DNA of 64,000 nt from the NCBI RefSeq assembly GCF_900103715.1, contig NZ_FNHL01000006.1, positions 1 through 64,000 on the forward strand. Direction: 5' to 3'. This DNA is from Halogranum gelatinilyticum. Its GTDB lineage: Archaea; Halobacteriota; Halobacteria; Halobacteriales; Haloferacaceae. Positions 23,977-59,260 of this stretch are shown in pieces (within the stretch, counting starts at the first letter, position 1; each line of letters starts with the position of its first letter). The position numbers and the translations under genes are program-made. The notes beneath the pieces are model-generated. The model did not search any database. It worked only from the letters and a program-made list of their open reading frames with translations, and had not been told where the DNA came from.

Positions 23977-25818
23977 TTAGGACTGTTGACGGGCGCTGAC
24001 AGCACCGATACGGGGCAACCAGTAGTAGTGCGACTGTACGTAGAGCGCGTCGGATTCCTTCTCCGGAACGTCCCACTCACTAGTGTCCCAGAACGCTTGC
24101 GACTGGTCCTCGACGATGGGGTAGATCGGTAGCGATTGATTCACTGCCCACCCTAGCTCTTTGACCAGCTGTTCTCGTTGACTCTGTTCGGTCACCGTGG
24201 CGAGTTCTTGGAGCTTCCCGGTGGTGTCAAACGGAGATGTCTCCCCGCTGGGGTCGCCGAGCGGTGGAACTGGCGGCTCCTCGGGGAAGCCCAAATTCGT
24301 GACGGTATCGCTGTTGAGCAACCACGACTGGATGAAGAAGGGCGCGGTCTGCCCGGAGTTGTTCCAGAACCACGGGCACATCTTGAAGTCCGTCGGTCCC
24401 CAGTACTGTCCGAAGAACGTCGTGTTCTCGACGTTGGTGTTGGTCGCCTCGATCCCGAAGTCGGACAACTGCTGTGCAACGACGTTGGTGAGCGTTACGT
24501 GGTCGCTCCATCCACCGGGGACCGGAATCTCGAACTCGAACGGGTCCCCGTTCGGCTTCATCCAGGTACCTCCTTCCTTGCTGTACCCCTCCTGTCGAAG
24601 TAGTTCGGCTGCCCGGTCCGTATCCCTGTACGAGGAGAACGAGTCTGCCTCGTCACCGAGATGCTGACGCCACGTATCGGTGTGGAAACTTCCGACGCCG
24701 GCTGGGACTTCAACAGCCGTCTTCGTGATATCGGAGAGTTCCCCAATCGCCTTTTGGTCGATGACATTTGCGACCGCCCGACGGACGTTCCGCCGACCGA
24801 AGTCCTCGTCATTGTGGTTGAACGCCATCGAATAGCCGTTGTATGCCGGAATGAGGAACTGGCGGACGGCATCGGGGAGTGTCTCGCGGATCCGACTCGG
24901 GAAGATCGTAGTTGTGGTCGCGTCGAGACCAGTGAGGTTCTTCATCGCCGCCCACTGCTGTTGATTCGATCCCATGTACTGCACCTCGTAGTACGGGAAG
25001 TTGATCTGGTCCGCCGAGGGGTGATCCTCGTTCTTCGAGAGAGTGAGCACCTGCTGGTTCGCCGACTCGAACTGGAACGGACCAGAGCCGACCGGCTCCT
25101 CGATCTCGTGGTCTTGGATGTCGCCCTGCAGCGTGGTCAGCTCTTCTTCGGAGAGATCGTCACTGTACCGTTCGACGAACTGTCCGTACTCGCTCGTCGG
25201 TGTGTTGAGCCAACTCTGGGCGAGGATCGTCATGATGACCTGCTCTTGGTAGCTGTCGGCCATCCGGTATTCGACGGTAGTATCATCAACCGCCGTCACC
25301 CCGTTGAGGTAGTCCGCGACTGGATACCCGAAGATGCTGTCGATCGTGTACTTGGTGACAATATCTTCGGCGGTTACCGGTTCACCGTTGTGCCAGGTGT
25401 CTCCCTCACGGAGGTTGATGGTCAACCTCGTTCCATCGATACTCCACTCTTGGAATAGGTACGGGATAAGCTCCCCCGTGCTCCGATTGTTCCGGAGGAA
25501 CGGGTCGAACACCATATACCCTCCCTGTTCGGCGTAGTTACTCGGCGCGTAGGGATTCCATCGGAGTTCCGTAGGGACGTATCGGCCCGGAATCGTGAGT
25601 GACTGATCCATTAGGCCGTCCCCCGCCCCCTCACTGTCACGGGTAGCGTCGCCGGTACTACTGCTATTGTTGAGCATCCCACTGACTCCAGTGTTGGTCC
25701 CCTGACTAGGGGTGTCACCGGAGCAGCCAGCCAGCGCGCTCACACCTGTCAATCCCGTTGCGGCGAGAACTGCTCTCCGACTGACCGGAGACTCCCCGCC
25801 TTTGTCGTTGTCGCTCAT
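23977..25818 (-). CDS. Dpp/Opp-type ABC transporter substrate-binding lipoprotein (system 1)
   Basis: 613 residues. Tat-type signal SRRAVLAATGLTG (13-25) and lipobox LAGC with Cys32, so exported folded and lipid-anchored. A Ser/Asp/Gly-rich linker (33-70) precedes the SBP family 5 domain in normal order: LREGDTWHNGEPVTAED early (about 140) and the closing lobe helix QREQLVKELGWAVNQSLPIYPI near 565. Family 5 proteins bind peptides, nickel or oligosaccharides; lying next to the glycosidase locus, an oligosaccharide is possible. Divergent from its permease and ATPase genes. TATA 30 nt upstream. Confidence 0.9.
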   Translation of the reverse strand: MSDNDKGGESPVSRRAVLAATGLTGVSALAGCSGDTPSQGTNTGVSGMLNNSSSTGDATRDSEGAGDGLMDQSLTIPGRYVPTELRWNPYAPSNYAEQGGYMVFDPFLRNNRSTGELIPYLFQEWSIDGTRLTINLREGDTWHNGEPVTAEDIVTKYTIDSIFGYPVADYLNGVTAVDDTTVEYRMADSYQEQVIMTILAQSWLNTPTSEYGQFVERYSDDLSEEELTTLQGDIQDHEIEEPVGSGPFQFESANQQVLTLSKNEDHPSADQINFPYYEVQYMGSNQQQWAAMKNLTGLDATTTTIFPSRIRETLPDAVRQFLIPAYNGYSMAFNHNDEDFGRRNVRRAVANVIDQKAIGELSDITKTAVEVPAGVGSFHTDTWRQHLGDEADSFSSYRDTDRAAELLRQEGYSKEGGTWMKPNGDPFEFEIPVPGGWSDHVTLTNVVAQQLSDFGIEATNTNVENTTFFGQYWGPTDFKMCPWFWNNSGQTAPFFIQSWLLNSDTVTNLGFPEEPPVPPLGDPSGETSPFDTTGKLQELATVTEQSQREQLVKELGWAVNQSLPIYPIVEDQSQAFWDTSEWDVPEKESDALYVQSHYYWLPRIGAVSARQQS

Positions 25819-26148
25819 GTTACATATGAAAGACAATGACATAATTAAATAAATCTTGGGGAGGTCACGGTTCATCGCCGTGGACCGGATCGTCAGCACG
25901 GTCAGTGGTCCTCAGAACACGCGACTCCAGTATGACCGGAGTGGCTGTACAGATCGGACCAAGGTGAGCGCGAGGCCCTCTTTTACCCCCCGGAGAACCT
26001 GCTTAGTGAAAAGAATCGAAGCAGGGTCTGCAACTCTCTTGGATCGAGTGTTTGAGAGGGGATTGAATGGTAGCTTTGAAAATGTTTGTCAAAGTCTATT
26101 TTGTTAAATCACGAAGGTTAATATGGGCGGGTCAGGAACACCCGCTGT
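25819..26148. promoter_or_regulatory. divergent promoter region of ABC system 1
   Basis: Minus-strand TATA-like ATTTATTTAATTA (about 25842-25854) is 30 nt before the binding-protein start. On the plus strand, TTAATATGG (26118-26126) is about 27 nt before the permease start. The middle is GC-poor and holds no gene. Confidence 0.5.
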
Positions 26149-27159
26149 ATGGTAAGCCGTATCATTAGGAGGCTGGCGCAAGCCATACTCACAGTATACG
26201 TCGTTGTTACTCTCACGTTCGGGATGATCCGGCTGATGCCCGGCGGGCCGATGGACTACTTGCGAGGGCAACTCATCCAGTCGACTGGCGGTCAAGTGAG
26301 TACCCAACAGATCAACCAACTCGTGGAGGCGTACACTAACGTCAATCCCGACCAACCGCTCTGGTCGCAGTACGCCGACTACGTAATCGAAACTGCGAGC
26401 GGGGACTTCGGCCGGTCAATCGTCTACAACGACCCGGTTTCGCAAATTCTCGCCCAAGCGTTGCCGTGGACGCTCCTACTGATGGTGACGTCGCTATTCC
26501 TGATGTTCATCATCGGCGTCGGATTGGGTGCCGTGATGGCGTACAACGAGGGGGAGCGGGTCGACCTCAGTGGGACTCTCGTGGGTATCCTGCTCAACTC
26601 GATTCCCTACTACGTGGCCGCGATCCTTCTCGTGTACGTACTCGGCTACCAGCTGGAGTGGTTCCCGACCGGCGGACGGATGACTCAATCGACGGTAGTC
26701 GGGTTCAACTACCCGTTCATCGCCGGCGTGTTCCACCATGCGGCGCTCCCGATCGTTTCGCTAGTCATCACCGGCTTCGGCGGGTGGGCGCTCAGTATGC
26801 GTGGCAACAGTATCCGTATCCTCGGAGAGGACTATCTCCGTGTTGCCGAGTTGCGGGGACTGCCCTCACGGCGGATCTCCCTGTGGTACGTCGGTCGGAA
26901 CGCGATTCTTCCGATGTACACGGGACTCCTGATCAATATCGGATTCATCTTCGGTGGGTCAGTTATCCTCGAGCAGATCTTCCGATACCCCGGCGTCGGG
27001 TACTATCTCTACACCTCAATCGGGGCACGCGACTATCCGCTAATGATGGGCGGATTCCTCGTCATCACCATCACCGTCGCAATCGGTGTGTTCATCGCCG
27101 ACGTGACGTACGGCTACATCGACCCGCGAGCAGGGGGGGAAGGCAATGAGTCATACTGA
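26149..27159 (+). CDS. ABC transporter permease, DppB type (system 1)
   Basis: 336 residues with six predicted membrane helices; the first lies at about 7-28, followed by the extracytoplasmic loop typical of DppB/OppB (LMPGGPMDYL). The coupling-helix EAA-type loop is ELRGLPSRRISLWYVGRNAILPM (about 244-266). Forms the channel with the DppC-type subunit. Its 3' end overlaps the next gene by 14 nt, so translation is coupled. First gene of a four-gene operon. Confidence 0.92.
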   Translation: MVSRIIRRLAQAILTVYVVVTLTFGMIRLMPGGPMDYLRGQLIQSTGGQVSTQQINQLVEAYTNVNPDQPLWSQYADYVIETASGDFGRSIVYNDPVSQILAQALPWTLLLMVTSLFLMFIIGVGLGAVMAYNEGERVDLSGTLVGILLNSIPYYVAAILLVYVLGYQLEWFPTGGRMTQSTVVGFNYPFIAGVFHHAALPIVSLVITGFGGWALSMRGNSIRILGEDYLRVAELRGLPSRRISLWYVGRNAILPMYTGLLINIGFIFGGSVILEQIFRYPGVGYYLYTSIGARDYPLMMGGFLVITITVAIGVFIADVTYGYIDPRAGGEGNESY

Positions 27160-32427: not shown

Positions 32428-32535
32428 ATGGCGACGAGTGACTACGCAGCGGTGTCCTTCGACGACTCCGACACCCGACGTGACGAGATGCACAGTACCA
32501 TCGAACAGTGGATCGACGACCTTGTCGATAGTTAG
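32428..32535 (+). CDS. possible 35-residue peptide or gene remnant
   Basis: An acidic short frame (MATSDYAAVSFDD... ending in WIDDLVDS) with haloarchaeal codon use. It could be the 3' end of a lost gene or a small protein. It overlaps the end of the convergent UspA gene by 4 nt. Confidence 0.25.
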   Translation: MATSDYAAVSFDDSDTRRDEMHSTIEQWIDDLVDS

Positions 32536-32978
32536 TCTGTTGCTGTAGTCACGACGGGATGATCCGCCTCCAGTAACACTTGTTGGGTCGTACTTCCGAA
32601 GATTGCTTTCCCAACGGGGGACCGGCGTTTCGACCCCAGCACAATAAACCGCGGCTCGATGTGGTCGGATTCGGCGAGAATTTTATCCGCTGGATTCCCC
32701 ACACGCCCGCGTGTTTCAACGCGGTCTCGATCGTATCCGTCCAGTGACTCGTTGATGACTTTCCGTGCGATATCGGCACCGCTCTGTTCCTTCTGATTTA
32801 TGGATATTTTGTCGAAGTTCGGGATCGAACTGAGTGCTTGCTTGTGTTCGTCGAAGTCCTCCTGTGGAATCACATGGATTGCAAGAAGGACATCGTCATA
32901 CGCTTCTGCGAGGTCGTATGCGGTCGAGACGACAGCTCGGGAGTGGTCGCCCTCACCGATTGCTGTGAGTATTGTCAT
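32532..32978 (-). CDS. UspA-type universal stress protein, single domain
   Basis: 148 residues, a complete USP domain: MTILTAIGEGDHSRAVVSTAYDLA at the start, and the nucleotide-loop IVLGSKRRSPVGKAIFGSTTQQVLLEADHPVV at the end, matching G-2x-G-9x-G(S/T). Likely an ATP-binding stress protein. It stands alone between two ABC systems, with a poly-T terminator of the preceding unit upstream. Confidence 0.88.
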   Translation of the reverse strand: MTILTAIGEGDHSRAVVSTAYDLAEAYDDVLLAIHVIPQEDFDEHKQALSSIPNFDKISINQKEQSGADIARKVINESLDGYDRDRVETRGRVGNPADKILAESDHIEPRFIVLGSKRRSPVGKAIFGSTTQQVLLEADHPVVTTATD

Positions 32979-33103
32979 GGATTGTTTCGTCTGGTTCTCC
33001 AGTATTGCGAACGGGCGAACACCGAATCAACGCTTCCCCGATAGGCAACGATAAGTACCGGCGTTTATCAGGCAGAGGGGTGTCTGAGACCGACACATCT
33101 TGG

Positions 33104-33169: not shown

Positions 33170-35131
33170 TTAGCTCGAACTGGAGAAGTCAGGCTGGTCG
33201 AGGTCGGTTCGCCGTTTGTACGTATTCCCATCTTGGATACGCTCGACGAACGCTCCCCATGCTTCGCCGTTCGGATAATGGAGGGTATCGTTGTTCCACG
33301 TGTACCCCGCTTTCTCGAGGATGGTTCGTGCTTTGTCTGTATCGTAAGCGTAGCCCTCGACGTTCGAATTATACCACTTCGAGTGAAGCGGTGAGGCGGG
33401 GTTCTGTCCTTCGGCCACGGTCGCTCGGCCGCCGAGCACGTCTTCGACGAAGCCCTCATTGTCAATCGAATGCGCCAGTGCTTTCCGGAATTCCTTGTCC
33501 CGGATGATCGGCACGAGGAAGTTTAGCTTCGTGTCCAACGGGGCGAAGTTCTCGACCGTAAACTTCTCCACCGCCGGTGATTCCGTGGCGCGCTCAGCCT
33601 GGCTGATCGAGAGCGTCCCGTCGATAGAGTGGATATCGCCGCTGTTGATAGCCCCGATCATGGCGTCGGTGTTCCCGACGTTCGACCAGATGAGTTCGTC
33701 GATGCCGTCGCCGCTCGCGAAGTCGTCACCGAGCACCTCGGAGCGGAACTCGTCGTCCCATTTCCAGTTGTTGTCCCATTTTTTGACGCGGAAGCGCGAG
33801 CCCTGACTCCAACTATCGAACTGGAACGGTCCCGTTCCGATCGGCGGATCCGGTGTGTGCTGAGAGGGCGTATCGATGTCTTCCCAGCGGTGTTCGGGGA
33901 TGATGACGCTGTTGACGGCACTGTGTGAGATGAACGTTGGGTTGGGGTTTTTCAGGTTGAACCGAATCGTGCCACCGCTACCCTCGGAGACTACCTCCGC
34001 GCTCTCGACCGGATTGTAGAAGAGGGTCTGGTTGATCGCATCGTTCTCTGTGTAGTACTCGACGGTGAACTTCACGTCGCTCGGTGTGAACTCTTCTCCG
34101 TCGTGCCATTGAACGCCTTCACGAAGCTCGAAGTCGACCGTGGTGTCGTCGATGAACTCCCAGTCGGTCGCCAGTGCTGGGACCAACTGGAGGTCTGGGC
34201 CGACGTCGAGCAGTCCGTCGTAGATGTACCGGAGTGTGAAGTCCTCGGGTCCACCTCCTCCCCACGGAAGGTTGAGAGTGTCCATCGTCGTCGTGGTACC
34301 CTTGACGTAACTCGTCTCGTCGGTGTTCGGCTGGAGGTTGGGTTCGGACCAGGGGATCGTGTCTCGCGTCGGTCCGTTCCCAGGCATGTTCACGTACCCC
34401 TCGAACTTCTCTGTGTTCGCAGCCGTGACGAGGTCCGGGAAGAACGGGATGATTCCCGCGACGTCATCGGAGAAAATCTGTTGGGCTTCTTTGATCAGCT
34501 CGACGCGCTTCTCCTCGTTCCCCGTTGTGATCGCTTGCTCACTGAGCACCTCCTGCATACGCGGGTGCCACCATTTCTCGTAAAATGACGGGCTTCCCTG
34601 ATGTTTGCGCATCAACAGTGCCACGGGACTAACCGCGCGGATCGGGTCCGGTCCGTGGATGCTCATCGAGATCACAGCTTCGAGTCCGGCAGGTGCCCAA
34701 CTCTCTGCGTATAGTTGATTGAGGGGGCGGTTGTTCAGATCCGTTGAAGCACCAAGCTGGTTGAATCCCTCTTGGAACATGAACGCATACTGTTGCATCC
34801 ACGGGCTGACCTCGCGGGAGTACTCCATCGAGATGGGATCCACCGCCGCCCCCGCGCTCGCAGTACGGCTAATCGGTGGCCCCTGGGAATACTGCTCGTC
34901 ACTGACGTGCGGCCAGTCGTCGCGCCAGTACTGTGATTGAACCTCAGCGGGCACGCCATCTGGAACCTCCGGGTCGACCGAATCAGAGTTACTCGAACCC
35001 GAACAGCCAGCGAGCGCGCCCATACCGGCGACGCCCATCGCCGTAACGCTCCGCAGATACGTCCGCCGAGTTGTTGTGGTCGAGTCGGTGCTGTTCTGCT
35101 TTGGCCCGTCTAGCCTGTCACTGTCTTCCAT
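33170..35131 (-). CDS. Dpp/Opp-type substrate-binding lipoprotein with apparent circular permutation (system 2)
   Basis: 653 residues. Twin-arginine motif TRR (21-23) and lipobox LAGC (Cys43). The order of family 5 segments is reversed: a block resembling the normal C-terminal lobe (about 105-250: MFQEGFNQLGA, then EKRVELIKEAQQIFSDDVAGIIPFF, then the GYV closing strand) comes first; the normal N-terminal part (about 280-360: LRYIYDGLLDV, LREGVQWHDGEEFTPSDVKF) follows; and the protein ends some 45 residues after DKARTILEKAGY, where the C-lobe would usually start. It presumably folds as a normal two-lobed binding protein with relocated ends. Divergent from its permeases. Confidence 0.88.
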   Translation of the reverse strand: MEDSDRLDGPKQNSTDSTTTTRRTYLRSVTAMGVAGMGALAGCSGSSNSDSVDPEVPDGVPAEVQSQYWRDDWPHVSDEQYSQGPPISRTASAGAAVDPISMEYSREVSPWMQQYAFMFQEGFNQLGASTDLNNRPLNQLYAESWAPAGLEAVISMSIHGPDPIRAVSPVALLMRKHQGSPSFYEKWWHPRMQEVLSEQAITTGNEEKRVELIKEAQQIFSDDVAGIIPFFPDLVTAANTEKFEGYVNMPGNGPTRDTIPWSEPNLQPNTDETSYVKGTTTTMDTLNLPWGGGGPEDFTLRYIYDGLLDVGPDLQLVPALATDWEFIDDTTVDFELREGVQWHDGEEFTPSDVKFTVEYYTENDAINQTLFYNPVESAEVVSEGSGGTIRFNLKNPNPTFISHSAVNSVIIPEHRWEDIDTPSQHTPDPPIGTGPFQFDSWSQGSRFRVKKWDNNWKWDDEFRSEVLGDDFASGDGIDELIWSNVGNTDAMIGAINSGDIHSIDGTLSISQAERATESPAVEKFTVENFAPLDTKLNFLVPIIRDKEFRKALAHSIDNEGFVEDVLGGRATVAEGQNPASPLHSKWYNSNVEGYAYDTDKARTILEKAGYTWNNDTLHYPNGEAWGAFVERIQDGNTYKRRTDLDQPDFSSSS

Positions 35132-35718
35132 GACATCCGATTTAATACCCCCAAAATAACATTAGTGTACTCACGATTGGCAGTGAACCACATTATTCTT
35201 TATAAGCTATGCTATACTCCGGCCACAAGAATAGTCTCTCAGGGCGAAATGTCGTGTTGAACCGCACAACTGTCCTATCGATCTTATCGCGCTGAATCGG
35301 CCCGTGTCTGAGAGGGACGTGCCCGAAGCTCCGGTCGTCGACCGTCAGGACTTACCCCGCAGTCAAAAGAGTGAACTGGTTTCTGGAACCCTCGAACGTA
35401 CTCTCATCGTCGTCTGCCCGCTTCAGGGAACCGAACGTGGAACCGAGTCTATGGTGTACAGCTCCTCCCGCTCGCGTGTCCGAGCTGTGGGAGTTCGAGC
35501 AGTCAGCGGGGGTTTCGAGTAGGTCTGTGATGCAGATAGTACCGGCCCAGCGACAGCACGTATCCACCCCCATATAAAAACCGATGATATTCTATGGCAT
35601 TCGTAATCGGATTGATGCCCACGGCTGGTCAAGGGTGGAACGCAATGGCACGGAAGCAGCCGCATCAACGTGAGGCTATCGCACGGGCAGGCAGGGAGAG
35701 CACTCCCGTGATTCATCC
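35132..35718. promoter_or_regulatory. intergenic region between the system 2 binding protein and permeases
   Basis: Minus-strand TGTTATTTT (about 35154-35162) is about 26 nt before the binding-protein start. On the plus strand CATATAAAAAC (35571-35581) is a good TATA element but lies about 140 nt before the permease ATG. No gene is supported in between. Confidence 0.45.
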
Positions 35719-36711
35719 ATGAGTGCCTTCAGACGGTTCCTGCTGAAACGAATCGCAATCTCCATCGGGCTGGTACTCGTCGCGACATCAGTGATTTTTC
35801 TGGTCCTTCGACTCCTGCCGGGGAGTCCGTTTACCGCACTGTTCACGACGGGAAACATCGGGCCGGAACAACAACAGGAGATTCTCGAACTCTACGGCCT
35901 GACTGAACCACTCTGGAAGCAGTACCTACTGTACATCAAAAATATGCTGACGCTCCAGTTCGGGTACTCCATCCAGAGTAGTTCGAGCGTCTGGTCGATC
36001 ATCGGCCCGAAGCTTCTGAACACACTCATCCTCCTCGTTCCGGCACTCGTGACGACCGCGATTGTGAGCAGTGTCGCGGGGATGTATGCTGGCTGGAACC
36101 GGGGATCGAAGTTCGAGAAGCTCAGTATCGTCGTGTCGACGTTCTTCCGCTCGACTCCAATCTTCATCAGTGGTCTCCTGTTCCTGATCATGTTCGCCTA
36201 CACGCTGAATCTGTTCCCACCGTTCGGGATGCGAAGCGTCACGGCGGAATCGACAGGGATCGTTGACACGTATCTCTCAATCGACTTCCTCCATCACTAC
36301 ATACTCCCGTTCAGTACGGCGGTATTGTACTACAGTGGCGACTTTCTGTTGCTCGCCCGAAACGGGGTCGTCGAGAAGAAAGGCTCCGAATTCCTCCAGC
36401 TTCACAAGGCCAAGGGGCTGACTGAACATGAACAGCTCGCACGTGCCGGTCGGAACACGATGTTGCCGCTGCTGACTTACTTCGCACTCCGGCTCGGGAT
36501 GATCTTCCAAGGCCTCATTCTGCTAGAGGTGGTGTTCGGATGGCCGGGGATTGGCCAAGAGCTTGTGAAGGCCATCTCCCAACAGGATTATCCGCTCGTC
36601 CAGGCGGCCGTATTCATCATGGCCCTCGCCGTGATCACGATGAACCTGATCGCAGACATCCTATACGCGCACTTCGATCCGAACGTCGATGCCAGTGGTG
36701 GTAGTGTATGA
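35719..36711 (+). CDS. ABC transporter permease, DppB type (system 2)
   Basis: 330 residues, six predicted helices, first at about 9-30. DppB features: LRLLPGSPFTALF after helix 1, and the coupling loop KAKGLTEHEQLARAGRNTMLPLLTY. The last cytoplasmic segment is short and acidic. It overlaps the next permease by 4 nt (ATGA), indicating translational coupling. Confidence 0.92.
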   Translation: MSAFRRFLLKRIAISIGLVLVATSVIFLVLRLLPGSPFTALFTTGNIGPEQQQEILELYGLTEPLWKQYLLYIKNMLTLQFGYSIQSSSSVWSIIGPKLLNTLILLVPALVTTAIVSSVAGMYAGWNRGSKFEKLSIVVSTFFRSTPIFISGLLFLIMFAYTLNLFPPFGMRSVTAESTGIVDTYLSIDFLHHYILPFSTAVLYYSGDFLLLARNGVVEKKGSEFLQLHKAKGLTEHEQLARAGRNTMLPLLTYFALRLGMIFQGLILLEVVFGWPGIGQELVKAISQQDYPLVQAAVFIMALAVITMNLIADILYAHFDPNVDASGGSV

Positions 36712-37616
36712 GCATTACGAACTTCTCCATCAACGACACCGTCGACCGACGCCTCGAACAGGCAAAAAAGCAATTTTGGTACCTCCTTCAGGACCAGTTA
36801 GCGGCCAGCGGGCTGGTGATTCTGGCCGGGTTCTTCTTCCTGGGAATCTTCGGCCCGATGTTAGCCCCGCACTCACCGTTTAATTATCAGGTGACGAACG
36901 CGCAGGGAGAGATCCTTCGACTCAGTTCGCCGAGTGTTGCGGCGCCGCTCGGGACGACTTCTTTCGGACAAGATATCCTTAGTCAGTTCCTCGTCGGCGC
37001 ACGGCCGACATTCATCGTTGGGCTGCTTGGCGGTGTTGGAACGTCCGTTCTCGGGTTCCTCGTCGGACTAACAAGCGGGTACTTCGGTGGCTACGTCGAC
37101 GAGGTGTTGATGCGGTTCACCGATTTGACCTATTCGCTGCCGCTGCTACCGATGGCACTGCTCATACTCACGTTCGTCGAGCCGAACATCCTGATTATCA
37201 CGCTCATCATAATGCTCTTCCTCTGGAAGATTCCAGCTCGCGTCGTTCGCTCGGAGGTACTCTCCGTTAAACAGCGAACGTTTGTAAAGTCCGCCCGCGC
37301 GAGCGGTGCCAGCGACCTGCGGACGATGTTCGTACACGTCGCGCCGAACGTCCTCTCGATCGGCGTGCTGTACACAGCGTACGGCATTGCGTGGTCGATC
37401 GCGGTTCAGGCGAGTCTCGCCTTCTTGGGTTTCGGCGACCCGACGACGACGAGCTGGGGACAGATGCTCAGAGCCGTGTTCACGTCAGGTGCGATACGCA
37501 CGGCTTGGTGGTGGGTTCTCCCGCCAGCACTCGGTATCGCGTCCGTGACGACCGCGGTCTTCCTCGTGGGACGGGCGTACGAAGAAATCACCAACCCGGA
37601 AATTAGAAACCAATGA
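36708..37616 (+). CDS. ABC transporter permease, DppC type (system 2)
   Basis: 302 residues with an N-terminal amphipathic helix, six membrane segments, the DppC block LGTTSFGQDILSQFLVGARPTF, and the EAA-type loop KSARASGASDLRTMFVHVAPN. It overlaps both neighbours by 4 nt, so the three genes form a tight operon. Confidence 0.92.
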   Translation: MSITNFSINDTVDRRLEQAKKQFWYLLQDQLAASGLVILAGFFFLGIFGPMLAPHSPFNYQVTNAQGEILRLSSPSVAAPLGTTSFGQDILSQFLVGARPTFIVGLLGGVGTSVLGFLVGLTSGYFGGYVDEVLMRFTDLTYSLPLLPMALLILTFVEPNILIITLIIMLFLWKIPARVVRSEVLSVKQRTFVKSARASGASDLRTMFVHVAPNVLSIGVLYTAYGIAWSIAVQASLAFLGFGDPTTTSWGQMLRAVFTSGAIRTAWWWVLPPALGIASVTTAVFLVGRAYEEITNPEIRNQ

Positions 37617-39664
37617 CATTACTGAACGTCGACGACATGAAGGTAACGTACGAAACAGCCGATTCCAAGGTTCACGCCGTCAACGGAGTCTCCTTCGATG
37701 TCGAACACGGCAGCAACTACGGTCTCGTCGGTGAGAGCGGGTCGGGGAAATCGACCATTGCACAGGCGATTCTGGGTCTGTTGCCCGACAATGGGACCGT
37801 CGAGGCGGGCTCGCTCGAATTCAAAGGGGAAGACATCACCCAGATGTCCGAGACAGAAAGACGCAACCTCCTATGGGAGGAGATCGCGTACATTCCACAG
37901 AGTGCGATGGACGCACTGGACCCGGTAATGACGACTGGTGACCAGATCAAACAGGCCATCACGAAACACCGGAAGGTTTCGGACGCCAAGGCCGAAGATC
38001 GAGTCAAGGAACTCTTCGAACTCGTCGAACTCGATCCCAGCCGTATCGACGAGTATCCACACGAGTTCTCCGGTGGGATGCGACAGCGGGTGACGATTGC
38101 GATGGCACTCGCGCTCGATCCCTCGTTGATCATTGCGGACGAACCGACGACTGGCCTTGACGTCATAGTTCAGGACAAAATCGTCCACAAGATCAACGAA
38201 ATCCAAGAGGAGATCGACGCGTCGCTGCTCTTGGTGACCCACGACATCGGCGTCATCGCCGAGACCTGCGAAGAACTTTCCGTGCTGTACGGGGGGAAGG
38301 TCATGGAACAGGGCAACGTCGGGAACATACTGACGAACCCGACGAACCCATACACGATGGGGCTGAAAAGCTCCTTCCCAGAGTTGGATGATACGAATAA
38401 CACGCCCGTCGCCATTCCGGGATCCCCCCCGGACCTCAATGCGGAACCGACGGGGTGCACGTTCAAAGACCGATGTCCGTTTGCGGAGCAGGAGTGTGAG
38501 GAATCGGTCCCACCGCTCGAAGAGATTCCGAACCGGAATCAGCGCTCCGCCTGCCACTTCGTCAACAAAGCTGCAGCGATGCGCGAGGAGGCAACTGACC
38601 CGGAAACGTGGGGCATCCAGCAGAACCCTGGCAAGAAGGATATCGGCAGACCGGTGCTCGAAGTCGACAACTTGGAGAAACACTACGAACTCAAACAGGG
38701 AATCATCGAAGGGCTGAAGCAGACCCCGCCGGACACGGTCAAAGCGGTTGACGGGGTCTCTTTCTCCGTGAACGAGTCCGAAATCTTCGGAATCGCTGGC
38801 GAAAGCGGCTGTGGCAAATCAACGCTCGGGGAGACAATCGCGTTGCTCGAAGAGCCGACCGGCGGCCAGATGCGATTTGACGGCAGAGATGTCGACGAGT
38901 ATCAGAAAGATATCCAGTCGTTCCGCAAGCAGGTACAGATAATCTTCCAAGACCCGTTCGATTCGCTCAATCCGCGGCTAACGGTGCGGCAGTTGGTCGA
39001 AGAGCCCCTCACGATCCACAACTATGATCCCGATGACCGTGAGCAGAAAGTCGAGGACACGCTGGAACGTGTCGGACTCGAACCGGCGTCAAAGTTCCTC
39101 TCTCAGTATCCACACGAACTCTCGGGTGGGCAGCGGCAACGCGTCGCTATTGCTCGGGCACTCATTCTCGAACCCAAACTGCTGGTCTGTGACGAACCGG
39201 CATCGATGCTCGACGTCTCGCTAAAGGTAAATCTCCTGAACCTATTTCGCGAACTCTCGGAAAAAGAAGACATCAGCATCATCTACATCTCACACGACCT
39301 GGCCAGCCTTGCTCACGTCTCCGATCGCTTAGCGATTATGTATCTCGGCCGGTTTATGGAGATCGGTGAGACGGATCGACTCGTCTCCAATCCGAAGCAT
39401 CCATACACGTCATCGCTACTTGAAGCGTCGCCAGAGAAGGATCCCTCGATTACGAGGGAACGAGTTCTCCTAGATGGGGAGCCGCCGGATCCCATTGACC
39501 TCTCCAGTGGATGTAAGTTTGCTGAGCGGTGTCCGAAAGCCCAGCCGGAGTGTTTCGACGCGGAACCGGACCTTGACCAGACGGGGAAAGAGGAACAATC
39601 GGTGGCGTGTTACTTCCCGGTCGAGGGGGAGCGATTACACTCAGAATTAAAACAAGAGTTGTAG
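37613..39664 (+). CDS. fused DppD-DppF ABC ATPase (system 2)
   Basis: 683 residues carrying two complete nucleotide-binding domains. Domain 1: Walker A GESGSGKS (about 40-47), signature FSGGMRQR, Walker [14 protein letters not shown]-loop VTHD, then the Cys block FKDRCPFAEQEC. Domain 2: Walker A GESGCGKS (near 395), signature LSGGQRQR, Walker B LLVCDEPASMLD, H-loop ISHD, and FAERCPKAQPEC near the end. A single chain replaces the DppD/DppF heterodimer of systems 1 and 3. Start overlaps the upstream permease by 4 nt. Confidence 0.93.
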   Translation: MTLLNVDDMKVTYETADSKVHAVNGVSFDVEHGSNYGLVGESGSGKSTIAQAILGLLPDNGTVEAGSLEFKGEDITQMSETERRNLLWEEIAYIPQSAMDALDPVMTTGDQIKQAITKHRKVSDAKAEDRVKELFELVELDPSRIDEYPHEFSGGMRQRVTIAMALALDPSLIIADEPTTGLDVIVQDKIVHKINEIQEEIDASLLLVTHDIGVIAETCEELSVLYGGKVMEQGNVGNILTNPTNPYTMGLKSSFPELDDTNNTPVAIPGSPPDLNAEPTGCTFKDRCPFAEQECEESVPPLEEIPNRNQRSACHFVNKAAAMREEATDPETWGIQQNPGKKDIGRPVLEVDNLEKHYELKQGIIEGLKQTPPDTVKAVDGVSFSVNESEIFGIAGESGCGKSTLGETIALLEEPTGGQMRFDGRDVDEYQKDIQSFRKQVQIIFQDPFDSLNPRLTVRQLVEEPLTIHNYDPDDREQKVEDTLERVGLEPASKFLSQYPHELSGGQRQRVAIARALILEPKLLVCDEPASMLDVSLKVNLLNLFRELSEKEDISIIYISHDLASLAHVSDRLAIMYLGRFMEIGETDRLVSNPKHPYTSSLLEASPEKDPSITRERVLLDGEPPDPIDLSSGCKFAERCPKAQPECFDAEPDLDQTGKEEQSVACYFPVEGERLHSELKQEL

Positions 39665-39669
39665 GCTCG

Positions 39670-40347
39670 TCATTCGAGAACCGCCTTGAGAAGCGCGTGT
39701 TCCGCATCACGAAGCCGCTGACTGAATGTGGACTGTGCGACCTCAAGCTTTTCTCCGACTTCGCTGGCCGTCGCTTTCCGAGGGCTATCGAAATACCCCA
39801 TCTCGTACGCCGTTTCGAGAGCCTCAACCTGCTTGTCAGTTAACTCACTGAGAATGCTGCTCATCCGCTGTGCAGTGTTGAGGGTAGTGCCGAAGTCGGT
39901 CTCTTGAGTGACCTCCAGAAGCTCAAAGTTACCCAACTTGTCTTCAACCTCCTCGCCTAATCGCTGAAAGTTGTCCCAGACGTCGACACTCACGACAACG
40001 TGTAGCAACTGGTCTTTGAGTATGATTTTGTTTGGGATGGCTTTGTTCCGAAGAAGAAGGTTGAGGATGAACGGGTATGGTTCGAGCGAGAACACCATGA
40101 GCTGCGTTCGATTTGTATTCGTTACTTTATCGCTGGCTTGGTGCTGGTGGAATAGAACTGTGCCCTGGATGTTCTGGAATATCTCATTGAAATCGTACAC
40201 TCCGTCAGTTGAGACTGTAAGCGACAGAAACCACTTGCCCTCCTCGACGAAGAACGCGTCGTCAAGTGTAATGCTCTTACTATCGATGGCCTGATTCAGG
40301 CGCTTCAGGGTTCCAGTCGGCTGTGTCTTGAATCCTATACGGAGCAC
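39670..40347 (-). CDS. Bat-type (HTH_10) transcriptional regulator
   Basis: 225 residues from a GTG start. The C-terminal helix-turn-helix (about 165-225) has the bacterio-opsin-activator pattern LTDKQVEALETAYEMGYFDSPRKATASEVGEKLEVAQSTF in pieces; the N-terminal domain (about 1-150) is the usual sensing part without recognisable ligand residues. It converges on the system 2 ATPase gene with 5 nt between stops and may regulate it (inference). A TATA element 29 nt upstream gives a leaderless transcript. Confidence 0.85.
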   Translation of the reverse strand: MLRIGFKTQPTGTLKRLNQAIDSKSITLDDAFFVEEGKWFLSLTVSTDGVYDFNEIFQNIQGTVLFHQHQASDKVTNTNRTQLMVFSLEPYPFILNLLLRNKAIPNKIILKDQLLHVVVSVDVWDNFQRLGEEVEDKLGNFELLEVTQETDFGTTLNTAQRMSSILSELTDKQVEALETAYEMGYFDSPRKATASEVGEKLEVAQSTFSQRLRDAEHALLKAVLE

Positions 40348-57401: not shown

Positions 57402-59084
57402 CTACATACTCTGGTCGAGCCAGACCTGCTCGAACCACCACTCCTGGTCGAGAAGCGGCTTGTAGTTCTTGACGCGCGGCTGCATCGCCTGGACGGCGTG
57501 GTCCCAGTACGGGTAGTATTTCCCGGCGTCCGCGATGTACTGCTCCATGATCTGTCCGTACAGCTCCTCGCGCTGTGCCCGGTCGGTCGTCTGGCGTGCC
57601 TGTGGGACCAGCTGCTGGATCTCCTCGTTGACGTAGCCGCCGTAGTTGAAGAACGCCCCCTCGACCAGGTTCACGCTGAACATCTGATCGGGGTCGAACA
57701 TCCCGTTGAACCCCGAGACGGTGAAGCCGAAGTTGTTGTTGCTCTGCTCCTCGAAGACGACGCTCCCGTCGGCGATCTGGATGTTGAAGTTCATCCCCAG
57801 GTTCTGGTTGAGCATCTCCTGGAGGAGTTCCTGCATCGTGATCCGGATGTTGTCGCCCCGGGTGACGAAGTTGGTGAACTCGGCGGTGTGGTCGACCTCG
57901 GCTTCGGCGAGTAGCTCTTCGGCCCGTTCCAAGTCTTGGCCCTGATACGGGTCCTCGACGTCGGGGTCCCACCCGGACTGTGGCGGGATCGGGAAGTTGT
58001 CGGCCCGGCTCGCGACCCCGTGGAACGCCACTTCGAGGACTGTATCCCAGTCCATCGCGTGGAGAACGGCCTTCCGGACGTTCGGGTCGCTGAACGGCGG
58101 CGCGGTCGTGTTGAACTGGATGATGCCCATGAACGCGCCCTGGCCGCTGTCCTCCGTGACCAGCGTATCGTGGTTGCGGATGCGTTCGACTTCCCGGCGG
58201 GGAACGAGGTCGATCCAGTCCAGTTGGTCCTGTTCCAACGTGGTGAGTTTCGTGTTGACGTCGGGGTAGATCGTGAACTCGATCCGGTCGAGATACGGCA
58301 GTTGGGTGCCGTCCTCGTCTTCCTTCCAGTAGTCCTCGAACTTGTTCATGTAGACGTGGTCGCCGTCGACCCATTCCTCGAATACGAACGGCCCGGAGCC
58401 GACGGGGTTAGACGACATATCGCCCTCCTTGTCCGCCTTCTCGTTGATGATGCCGACGATGAATCCGAGCGTCGACTCCAGAGAGGCGAACGGCTGCTCG
58501 CCGGTATCGAACTCCACGGTGTGTTCGTCTCGGGCGGACACCGTCACGTCCTGGGCGAACAGCAGGGAGGCGGTGTACTGCGGCTGGTCGTACAGCGTAT
58601 CGAACGTGTAGGCCACGTCGTTGGCAGTCACCGGCTCGCCGTTGTGGAACACGGCGTCCTCGTTGAGAGAGATTACGAGCGTCGTGTCGTCTTCCCACTC
58701 CCACTCGGTCGCCAGGTCTCCGACCAACACGAGCTCGTCGCCGTCGCGCCGCCACCGCATCAGCTTCGAGTAGATGTTGTAGAAGACCTGGAACGACTGG
58801 AGTCCGGTCACGGACCGCCCGTCCATCGTCTCGATCCCGACTTTCATCCCCGCGTTCAACGTGCCACCGACCTGCGGCTGTGACGACGACTGGGTCGTCG
58901 TCGAGGTGGTGCCCCCATCACCACCGTCACCTCCGCCGTCGCTGCCACCGTCTCCACCACTGTCCCCTCCCATACATCCCGCCAGTCCCACTGCCGCAGC
59001 CGCGGGACCCAGCGTCTTGATTACGTCCCGGCGCGACATCTCAGAGAGGTTTACCATCGTCTTCTCCATCGGCTTCTCGGACAT
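57402..59084 (-). CDS. Dpp/Opp-type substrate-binding lipoprotein (system 3)
   Basis: 560 residues. Signal: SRRDVIKTLGPAAAAVGLAGC, with twin Arg near 18-19 and lipobox Cys near 36, then a Gly/Asp/Ser-rich linker. The family 5 domain has normal order: VISLNEDAVFHNGEPVTANDV early, GSGPFVFEEW in the middle, and REELYGQIMEQYIADAGKYYPYW near the C-terminus. Presumably delivers peptides to the system 3 permease coded at 51193. Separate minus-strand gene with its own TATA (about 59111-59120) and the shared ACCCACCATG motif. Confidence 0.92.
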   Translation of the reverse strand: MSEKPMEKTMVNLSEMSRRDVIKTLGPAAAAVGLAGCMGGDSGGDGGSDGGGDGGDGGTTSTTTQSSSQPQVGGTLNAGMKVGIETMDGRSVTGLQSFQVFYNIYSKLMRWRRDGDELVLVGDLATEWEWEDDTTLVISLNEDAVFHNGEPVTANDVAYTFDTLYDQPQYTASLLFAQDVTVSARDEHTVEFDTGEQPFASLESTLGFIVGIINEKADKEGDMSSNPVGSGPFVFEEWVDGDHVYMNKFEDYWKEDEDGTQLPYLDRIEFTIYPDVNTKLTTLEQDQLDWIDLVPRREVERIRNHDTLVTEDSGQGAFMGIIQFNTTAPPFSDPNVRKAVLHAMDWDTVLEVAFHGVASRADNFPIPPQSGWDPDVEDPYQGQDLERAEELLAEAEVDHTAEFTNFVTRGDNIRITMQELLQEMLNQNLGMNFNIQIADGSVVFEEQSNNNFGFTVSGFNGMFDPDQMFSVNLVEGAFFNYGGYVNEEIQQLVPQARQTTDRAQREELYGQIMEQYIADAGKYYPYWDHAVQAMQPRVKNYKPLLDQEWWFEQVWLDQSM

Positions 59085-59133
59085 GACTACCACGATTGGG
59101 GTAACGGGGCGATATAAGTCCTGTGGTGAAATA

Positions 59134-59149
59134 CCATACCATGGTGGGT
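59134..59149 (-). promoter_or_regulatory. shared ACCCACCATG motif, binding-protein/M28 intergenic region
   Basis: CCATACCATGGTGGGT on the plus strand, 50-65 nt before the binding-protein start and about 140 nt before the M28 peptidase start. Confidence 0.45.
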
Positions 59150-59260
59150 TGTTCTCACCGACTCGTCGGGTGAATTCGGCAACGTGCTGGCGTACCACCA
59201 CTTAATCGGGGCGAATTGTCGGCAGAAAAGGACGGCCCGCTGACTGCCTCTTACACAACC

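Follow-up and report, generated by a model that had tools for sequence, protein, structure and literature searches.

A haloarchaeal lipoprotein that very likely has a naturally occurring, circularly permuted family 5 (cluster C) substrate-binding fold

DppA of E. coli (1dpp) is a cluster C substrate-binding protein (SBP) of family 5, and its R383 and D436 residues bind the ends of the dipeptide ligand (PMC12136057). In the DppABCDF transporter, the scoop motif of DppB enters the cleft of the binding protein, while the helices of DppB contact both lobes (PMC12136057). A natural circular permutation of an ABC substrate-binding protein was described for Tp0684 (MglB-2) of Treponema pallidum, which belongs to cluster B and for which a cluster Bc was proposed (PMC4990184). 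In the open-access literature that we searched, which excludes most subscription journals, we found no report of circular permutation in cluster C, and Tp0684 was the sole relevant precedent.

We analysed a window, i.e. a whole stretch of 64,000 nucleotides, from Halogranum gelatinilyticum (contig NZ_FNHL01000006.1). An original prediction, made without database searches, had proposed that one family 5 binding protein in this window is circularly permuted, with its C-terminal lobe first. The features of this protein and of the adjoining transporter genes are as follows.

33170..35131, minus strand: gene for a family 5 solute-binding lipoprotein of 653 aa with circularly permuted segments, based on the ORF, Pfam PF00496 and full-length conserved homologues
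35003..35131, minus strand: leader with a twin-arginine-like motif and a lipobox ending in Cys43, residues 1-43, read from the sequence
34880..35002, minus strand: linker past the lipidated cysteine, residues 44-84, assigned from the sequence
34346..34879, minus strand: relocated C-lobe segment, residues 85-262, equivalent to canonical columns about 370-525 (hhalign, DppA match)
34277..34384, minus strand: segment in which the former C- and N-termini are joined, residues about 250-285, falling between the two profile matches
33272..34324, minus strand: canonical first two thirds (N-lobe and start of the C-lobe), residues 270-620, equivalent to columns 48-374 (hhalign, Pfam, DppA)
33173..33271, minus strand: new C-terminal tail, residues 621-653, consensus GDAWxAFxERxxxGxxxRxELxQPDFS
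35719..36711, plus strand: OppB/DppB-type permease, 330 aa (Pfam PF00528 and PF19300), which clades with the permeases of other permuted systems
36708..37616, plus strand: OppC/DppC-type permease, 302 aa (Pfam PF00528 and PF12911)
37613..39664, plus strand: single-chain double ATPase (DppD-DppF fusion), 683 aa, with two ABC_tran and two oligo_HPY stretches
39670..40347, minus strand: HTH_10 regulator (Pfam PF04967), likely of the transporter

The window protein is homologous to DppA over the whole fold, and its partner permeases and ATPases are of the same families as those of DppABCDF (PMC12136057). It differs from DppA in its permuted segment order (the cut maps between positions 340 and 345 of DppA), in a tether that is inferred to sit at the C-lobe, and in a ligand that is probably not a dipeptide; the fused DppD-DppF ATPase of the window subfamily is a further difference from DppABCDF. 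Like Tp0684, it is a tethered ABC substrate-binding protein with a naturally occurring circular permutation that has been conserved within a clade. However, Tp0684 has the cluster B sugar-binding fold of an unrelated family, and its permutation moves N-lobe strands to the C-terminus, whereas the window protein is cut within the C-lobe of cluster C. The best-scoring named family, Opp4A (NCBIfam NF045467), aligned co-linearly with residues 290-638 but reached only 106.7 bits against a cut-off of 650 and left the front segment unmatched.

Profile comparisons placed the segments of the window protein out of order. Pfam SBP_bac_5 (PF00496) scored 185.4 bits against a cut-off of 32.4, with residues 316-617 matching profile positions 2-285 of 368 only. 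As the original prediction had claimed, the binding proteins of systems 1 and 3 in the same window have the usual order and serve as internal controls: those at 23977-25899 and 57402-59201 matched Pfam positions 3-364 and 2-360, respectively, co-linearly with the canonical profile. In a phmmer comparison with DppA, query residues 313-458 matched DppA 43-207, residues 543-610 matched 276-340 and residues 96-247 matched 345-492, such that the query ended at DppA 340 and resumed at 345. When a profile of 52 family members was compared with one of 63 canonical bacterial proteins by hhalign, residues about 99-249 fell on canonical columns 380-523 (probability 97.8%, P 7.8e-13) and residues 270-618 fell on columns 48-374 (probability 100%, P 2.4e-66), and no competing placement of either segment was found in this comparison. 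The two pieces are complementary, do not overlap and jointly span the family 5 fold. The predicted pair of out-of-order profile matches was thus found, and the outcome that would have refuted it, a single co-linear alignment over the whole protein, was not seen with Pfam, phmmer or hhalign.

The front segment of the window protein alone gave a weak match (10.3 bits, i-E 1e-5). In distant haloarchaeal relatives the same segment scored 38-72 bits and was out of order in 20 of 20 proteins, the first match starting at profile position 353-382 and the second running from about 32-65 to 359-364; a chance match is excluded because these relatives score so well and always out of order. Most of the distant permuted proteins stop just past an ...AGYxW... 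stretch, which is the cut position. Over 106 non-redundant permuted proteins the front segment starts at a median column of 376 and the rear segment ends at a median column of 362, showing that they share one cut site. Rotating the sequence was by itself not enough to join the two pieces in an alignment to the canonical profile, as a stretch of about 75 residues (tail, leader and linker) intervenes; once this was trimmed, the pieces were joined and scored 7.5 bits more than the rear part on its own. No PDB chain matched the permuted profile in one piece, and profile A3 aligned with PDB chains only as separate stretches. Family 5/cluster C proteins were the only matches of the window protein, both at the sequence level and with the model, and it does not have the cluster B sugar-binding fold. 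Since it lacks the canonical segment order of the matching members with solved structures, we file it as a permuted variant rather than as an ordinary family 5 member. Together, these results make it very likely that the family 5 (cluster C, DppA/OppA-type) fold has undergone natural circular permutation in the 653-aa lipoprotein, with the reservation that there is neither a solved structure nor a permutation-aware superposition.

Two details of the original prediction required revision. The relocated segment, proposed to lie at residues about 105-250, is nearer 85-262, and the chain, proposed to stop shortly after DKARTILEKAGY, continues for 43 more residues and ends in a tail conserved in the subfamily. 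In the subfamily alignment, G622, A624, W625, A627, F628, R631, R641, L644, Q646, D648 and F649 of this tail are invariant; the tail is conserved in the window subfamily only and is missing from most distant permuted relatives. The fusion region (residues about 250-285) is strongly conserved throughout the family alignment, in which R22, R23, G42 and C43 of the leader are invariant and the low-complexity linker (residues 44-84) varies in length. The export features of the window protein, a leader and a lipobox, were read from sequence alone. A lipobox-like motif is present in 88 of the 106 non-redundant permuted proteins. One permuted binding protein from another archaeon of the phylum (L204, 5730-7472, minus strand) has no clear lipobox and carries a C-terminal PGF-CTERM signal. 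We also observed that a small ORF in the window at 32532-32979 (minus strand) resembles a universal stress protein by eye.

An AlphaFold2 (AF2) model was built from an alignment of 14 permuted proteins and 47 canonical rear fragments. It formed a single compact globule (pLDDT 89.5, pTM 0.87) in which low confidence was limited to the leader and the start of the linker. The canonical fragments aided the alignment of the rear two thirds; canonical C-lobe fragments could not be used, as MAFFT misplaced them. An earlier model, made from 14 close relatives only, was poor (pLDDT 50), and a Foldseek search with it was uninformative. With the good model, the top PDB matches in Foldseek were cluster C binding proteins, aligned over 362-451 columns with target TM scores of 0.43-0.56. 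Partial scores of this kind are to be expected when an order-dependent aligner works on a permuted chain, and they are no proof of permutation.

We infer that the window protein serves a Dpp/Opp-type ABC importer as its membrane-tethered substrate-binding subunit, with uptake, ligand binding and delivery all resting on inference. The new ends lie in a C-lobe loop, between the helix ending in ...KARTILEKAGY and the next strand, and the old N- and C-terminal strands, which are neighbours in canonical proteins, are joined as one continuous segment. Since the permuted chain keeps both lobes, the usual capture and docking would be expected, with two lobes, a cleft and contact with the permease pair as in canonical proteins. 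Folding and flytrap closure are inferred from the AF2 model only. The predicted change is in the tether: the lipidated N-terminal cysteine would hang from the C-lobe instead of the N-lobe. The original prediction that the lipid anchor has moved to the other lobe follows from this anatomy, without experimental support. The PGF-CTERM anchor of L204 would also hang from the C-lobe, because both new ends sit at the cut. The permuted order may have arisen through a duplication in tandem, after which the outer ends were lost. Two long frames (G058, 941 residues, and G308, 921 residues) were considered as 1.5-fold duplicated intermediates and rejected; from their start codons they encode 566 and 575 aa, arranged in the permuted order that is usual for the class.

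Dpp/Opp-type permease genes adjoin 52 of the 55 permuted genes that had enough flanking sequence, and they are usually arranged as binding protein, B, C and ATPase(s). The single long ATPase ORF is found in other main-family loci as well, whereas in most distant permuted systems the two ATPases are separate. Of 18 other main-family loci, 17 include a homologue of the HTH_10 regulator. In the window, the regulator gene (39670-40347) lies past the ATPase gene, while in relatives a regulator-like ORF is often just upstream of the binding-protein gene. The binding-protein gene of the window is divergent from the permease genes (35131-35719), while in the relatives examined the genes, including the ATPase gene, are mostly on one strand.

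Genes for a class III CoA-transferase or an NDP-forming acyl-CoA synthetase and/or a CitE-like lyase are present at 12 of 23 main-family loci. At one of these (L047, 10946-13017) the binding-protein and permease genes are separated by the transferase and lyase genes, and such genes were also noted at L053 (2113-5249), L177, L178 and L179. These neighbouring genes suggest that the ligand of the subfamily is a small organic acid and not a peptide, and that they may form, around the transporter, a unit for uptake and breakdown of organic acids. In the window, no CoA-transferase, acyl-CoA synthetase or CitE-like lyase genes were found next to the transporter. Whether the ligand of the window protein is a small organic acid and not a peptide is evenly balanced on present evidence, which consists of the neighbours in other genomes, with PMC12290011 cited alongside them.

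The original prediction covered one protein; the evidence extends to a large, old and widespread permuted class. In a census of 264 family 5 ORFs, 156 were permuted at one site, 107 were canonical and 1 was unclear; many haloarchaeal genera, some other archaea of the phylum and some bacteria are represented among the permuted ORFs. The H. gelatinilyticum genome encodes eleven family 5 proteins, of which the window protein is the sole permuted one and the other ten are canonical. Strong matches, most of them full-length close members, were found in 72 of 342 genomes of the order, and more distant permuted proteins widen the range past these 72. Outside the order, permuted proteins occur in other archaea of the phylum (L204-L207). 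They are also found in bacteria, in 12 of 299 genomes sampled from the phylum of a Halobacteroidaceae MAG and, as judged by profile span only, in 1 of 201 Chloroflexota genomes, while none of 249 Pseudomonadota genomes reached the threshold. Some bacterial matches are on megabase contigs (e.g. G712, 3.17 Mb) and therefore are not binning errors.

For the binding-protein tree, sequences were put back in canonical order. Thirty-one of the 35 permuted rows formed one group (SH-aLRT 92) beside canonical proteins of other archaea of the phylum, and a single origin of all 35 was not rejected (p-AU 0.17). As controls, the permease tree included canonical systems from haloarchaea and from other archaeal members of the phylum. 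In it, 25 main-lineage permeases formed one clade (SH-aLRT 99.9), from which it follows that the permuted protein and its permease moved together across archaea and bacteria. The nearest relatives of this clade are canonical methanogen-type archaeal systems, with canonical haloarchaeal systems lying apart. Four permeases (L204, L205, L211 and L229) fell among canonical systems, and the binding proteins of these four are also outside the main permuted clade of their tree; one permease clade for all permuted systems was rejected (p-AU 8e-6). As a separate observation, the permease of system 1 in the window (26149-27159), whose binding protein is canonical, is very divergent (branch length 1.2-1.3) and lies loosely near the permuted lineage.

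The four outlying systems imply that the same site was permuted again or that binding proteins were exchanged, and the data do not decide between these. Several independent permutations, in place of one event, would be consistent with the position of the four outside the main clade in both trees and with the rejection of a single permease clade. Against this, a single origin of the binding proteins was not rejected, and swapping of binding proteins between transporters would give the same permease pattern. On balance, we lean slightly away from multiple permutations. A bolder reading, which remains a possibility only, is that cluster C was permuted more than once at the same C-lobe loop and that this was selected because it moves the tether to the C-lobe. 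The N-terminal lipid of the main lineage and the PGF-CTERM anchor of L204 might then end up at the same place on the protein. If true, permutation would be a recurrent way to turn a binding protein round on its permease.

A second alternative is that the window protein is a family 5 protein of the ordinary kind to which an unrelated N-terminal domain has been added and whose C-terminal part is truncated. This is favoured by the Pfam match, which alone covers residues 316-617 only, and by the weakness of the front segment in the single window sequence. However, family profiles place the front segment on exactly the missing third, the distant relatives give clear out-of-order scores, and the AF2 model is one globule. 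Furthermore, there is no room for an added domain in the distant permuted proteins, because they are only 545-586 aa long, the canonical size. The complementary coverage and the one compact model contradict an extra domain in place of a permuted lobe, and we consider this alternative very unlikely. A local rearrangement, pseudogene or assembly error at the window locus is all but excluded, since full-length, co-linear homologues with open frames are present in many independent genomes and conservation across the fusion is strong, although the divergent orientation of the window gene relative to the permease genes, which differs from that in relatives, indicates that some change in gene order did occur.

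Our results show that the segments are permuted, that they cover the entire fold and that the class shares a single cut site; they also show conservation, permease linkage and co-inheritance with permeases. The best reading, which we regard as very likely although function is inferred, is a working importer lineage with a binding protein tethered by its C-lobe. The permuted cluster C class appears to be undescribed in the open-access literature, and by analogy with Bc it could be named Cc. Pfam and NCBIfam annotation sees mainly the rear part of these proteins and gives no hint of permutation. Cluster C is among the largest groups of binding proteins, and within it a conserved permuted class is common to archaea and bacteria and is co-inherited with its permeases. 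Its origin can be studied, because the sister group of canonical systems has been identified. The class provides a natural test of whether docking depends on chain order and on which lobe is tethered, in which canonical paralogues in the same cells would serve as controls.
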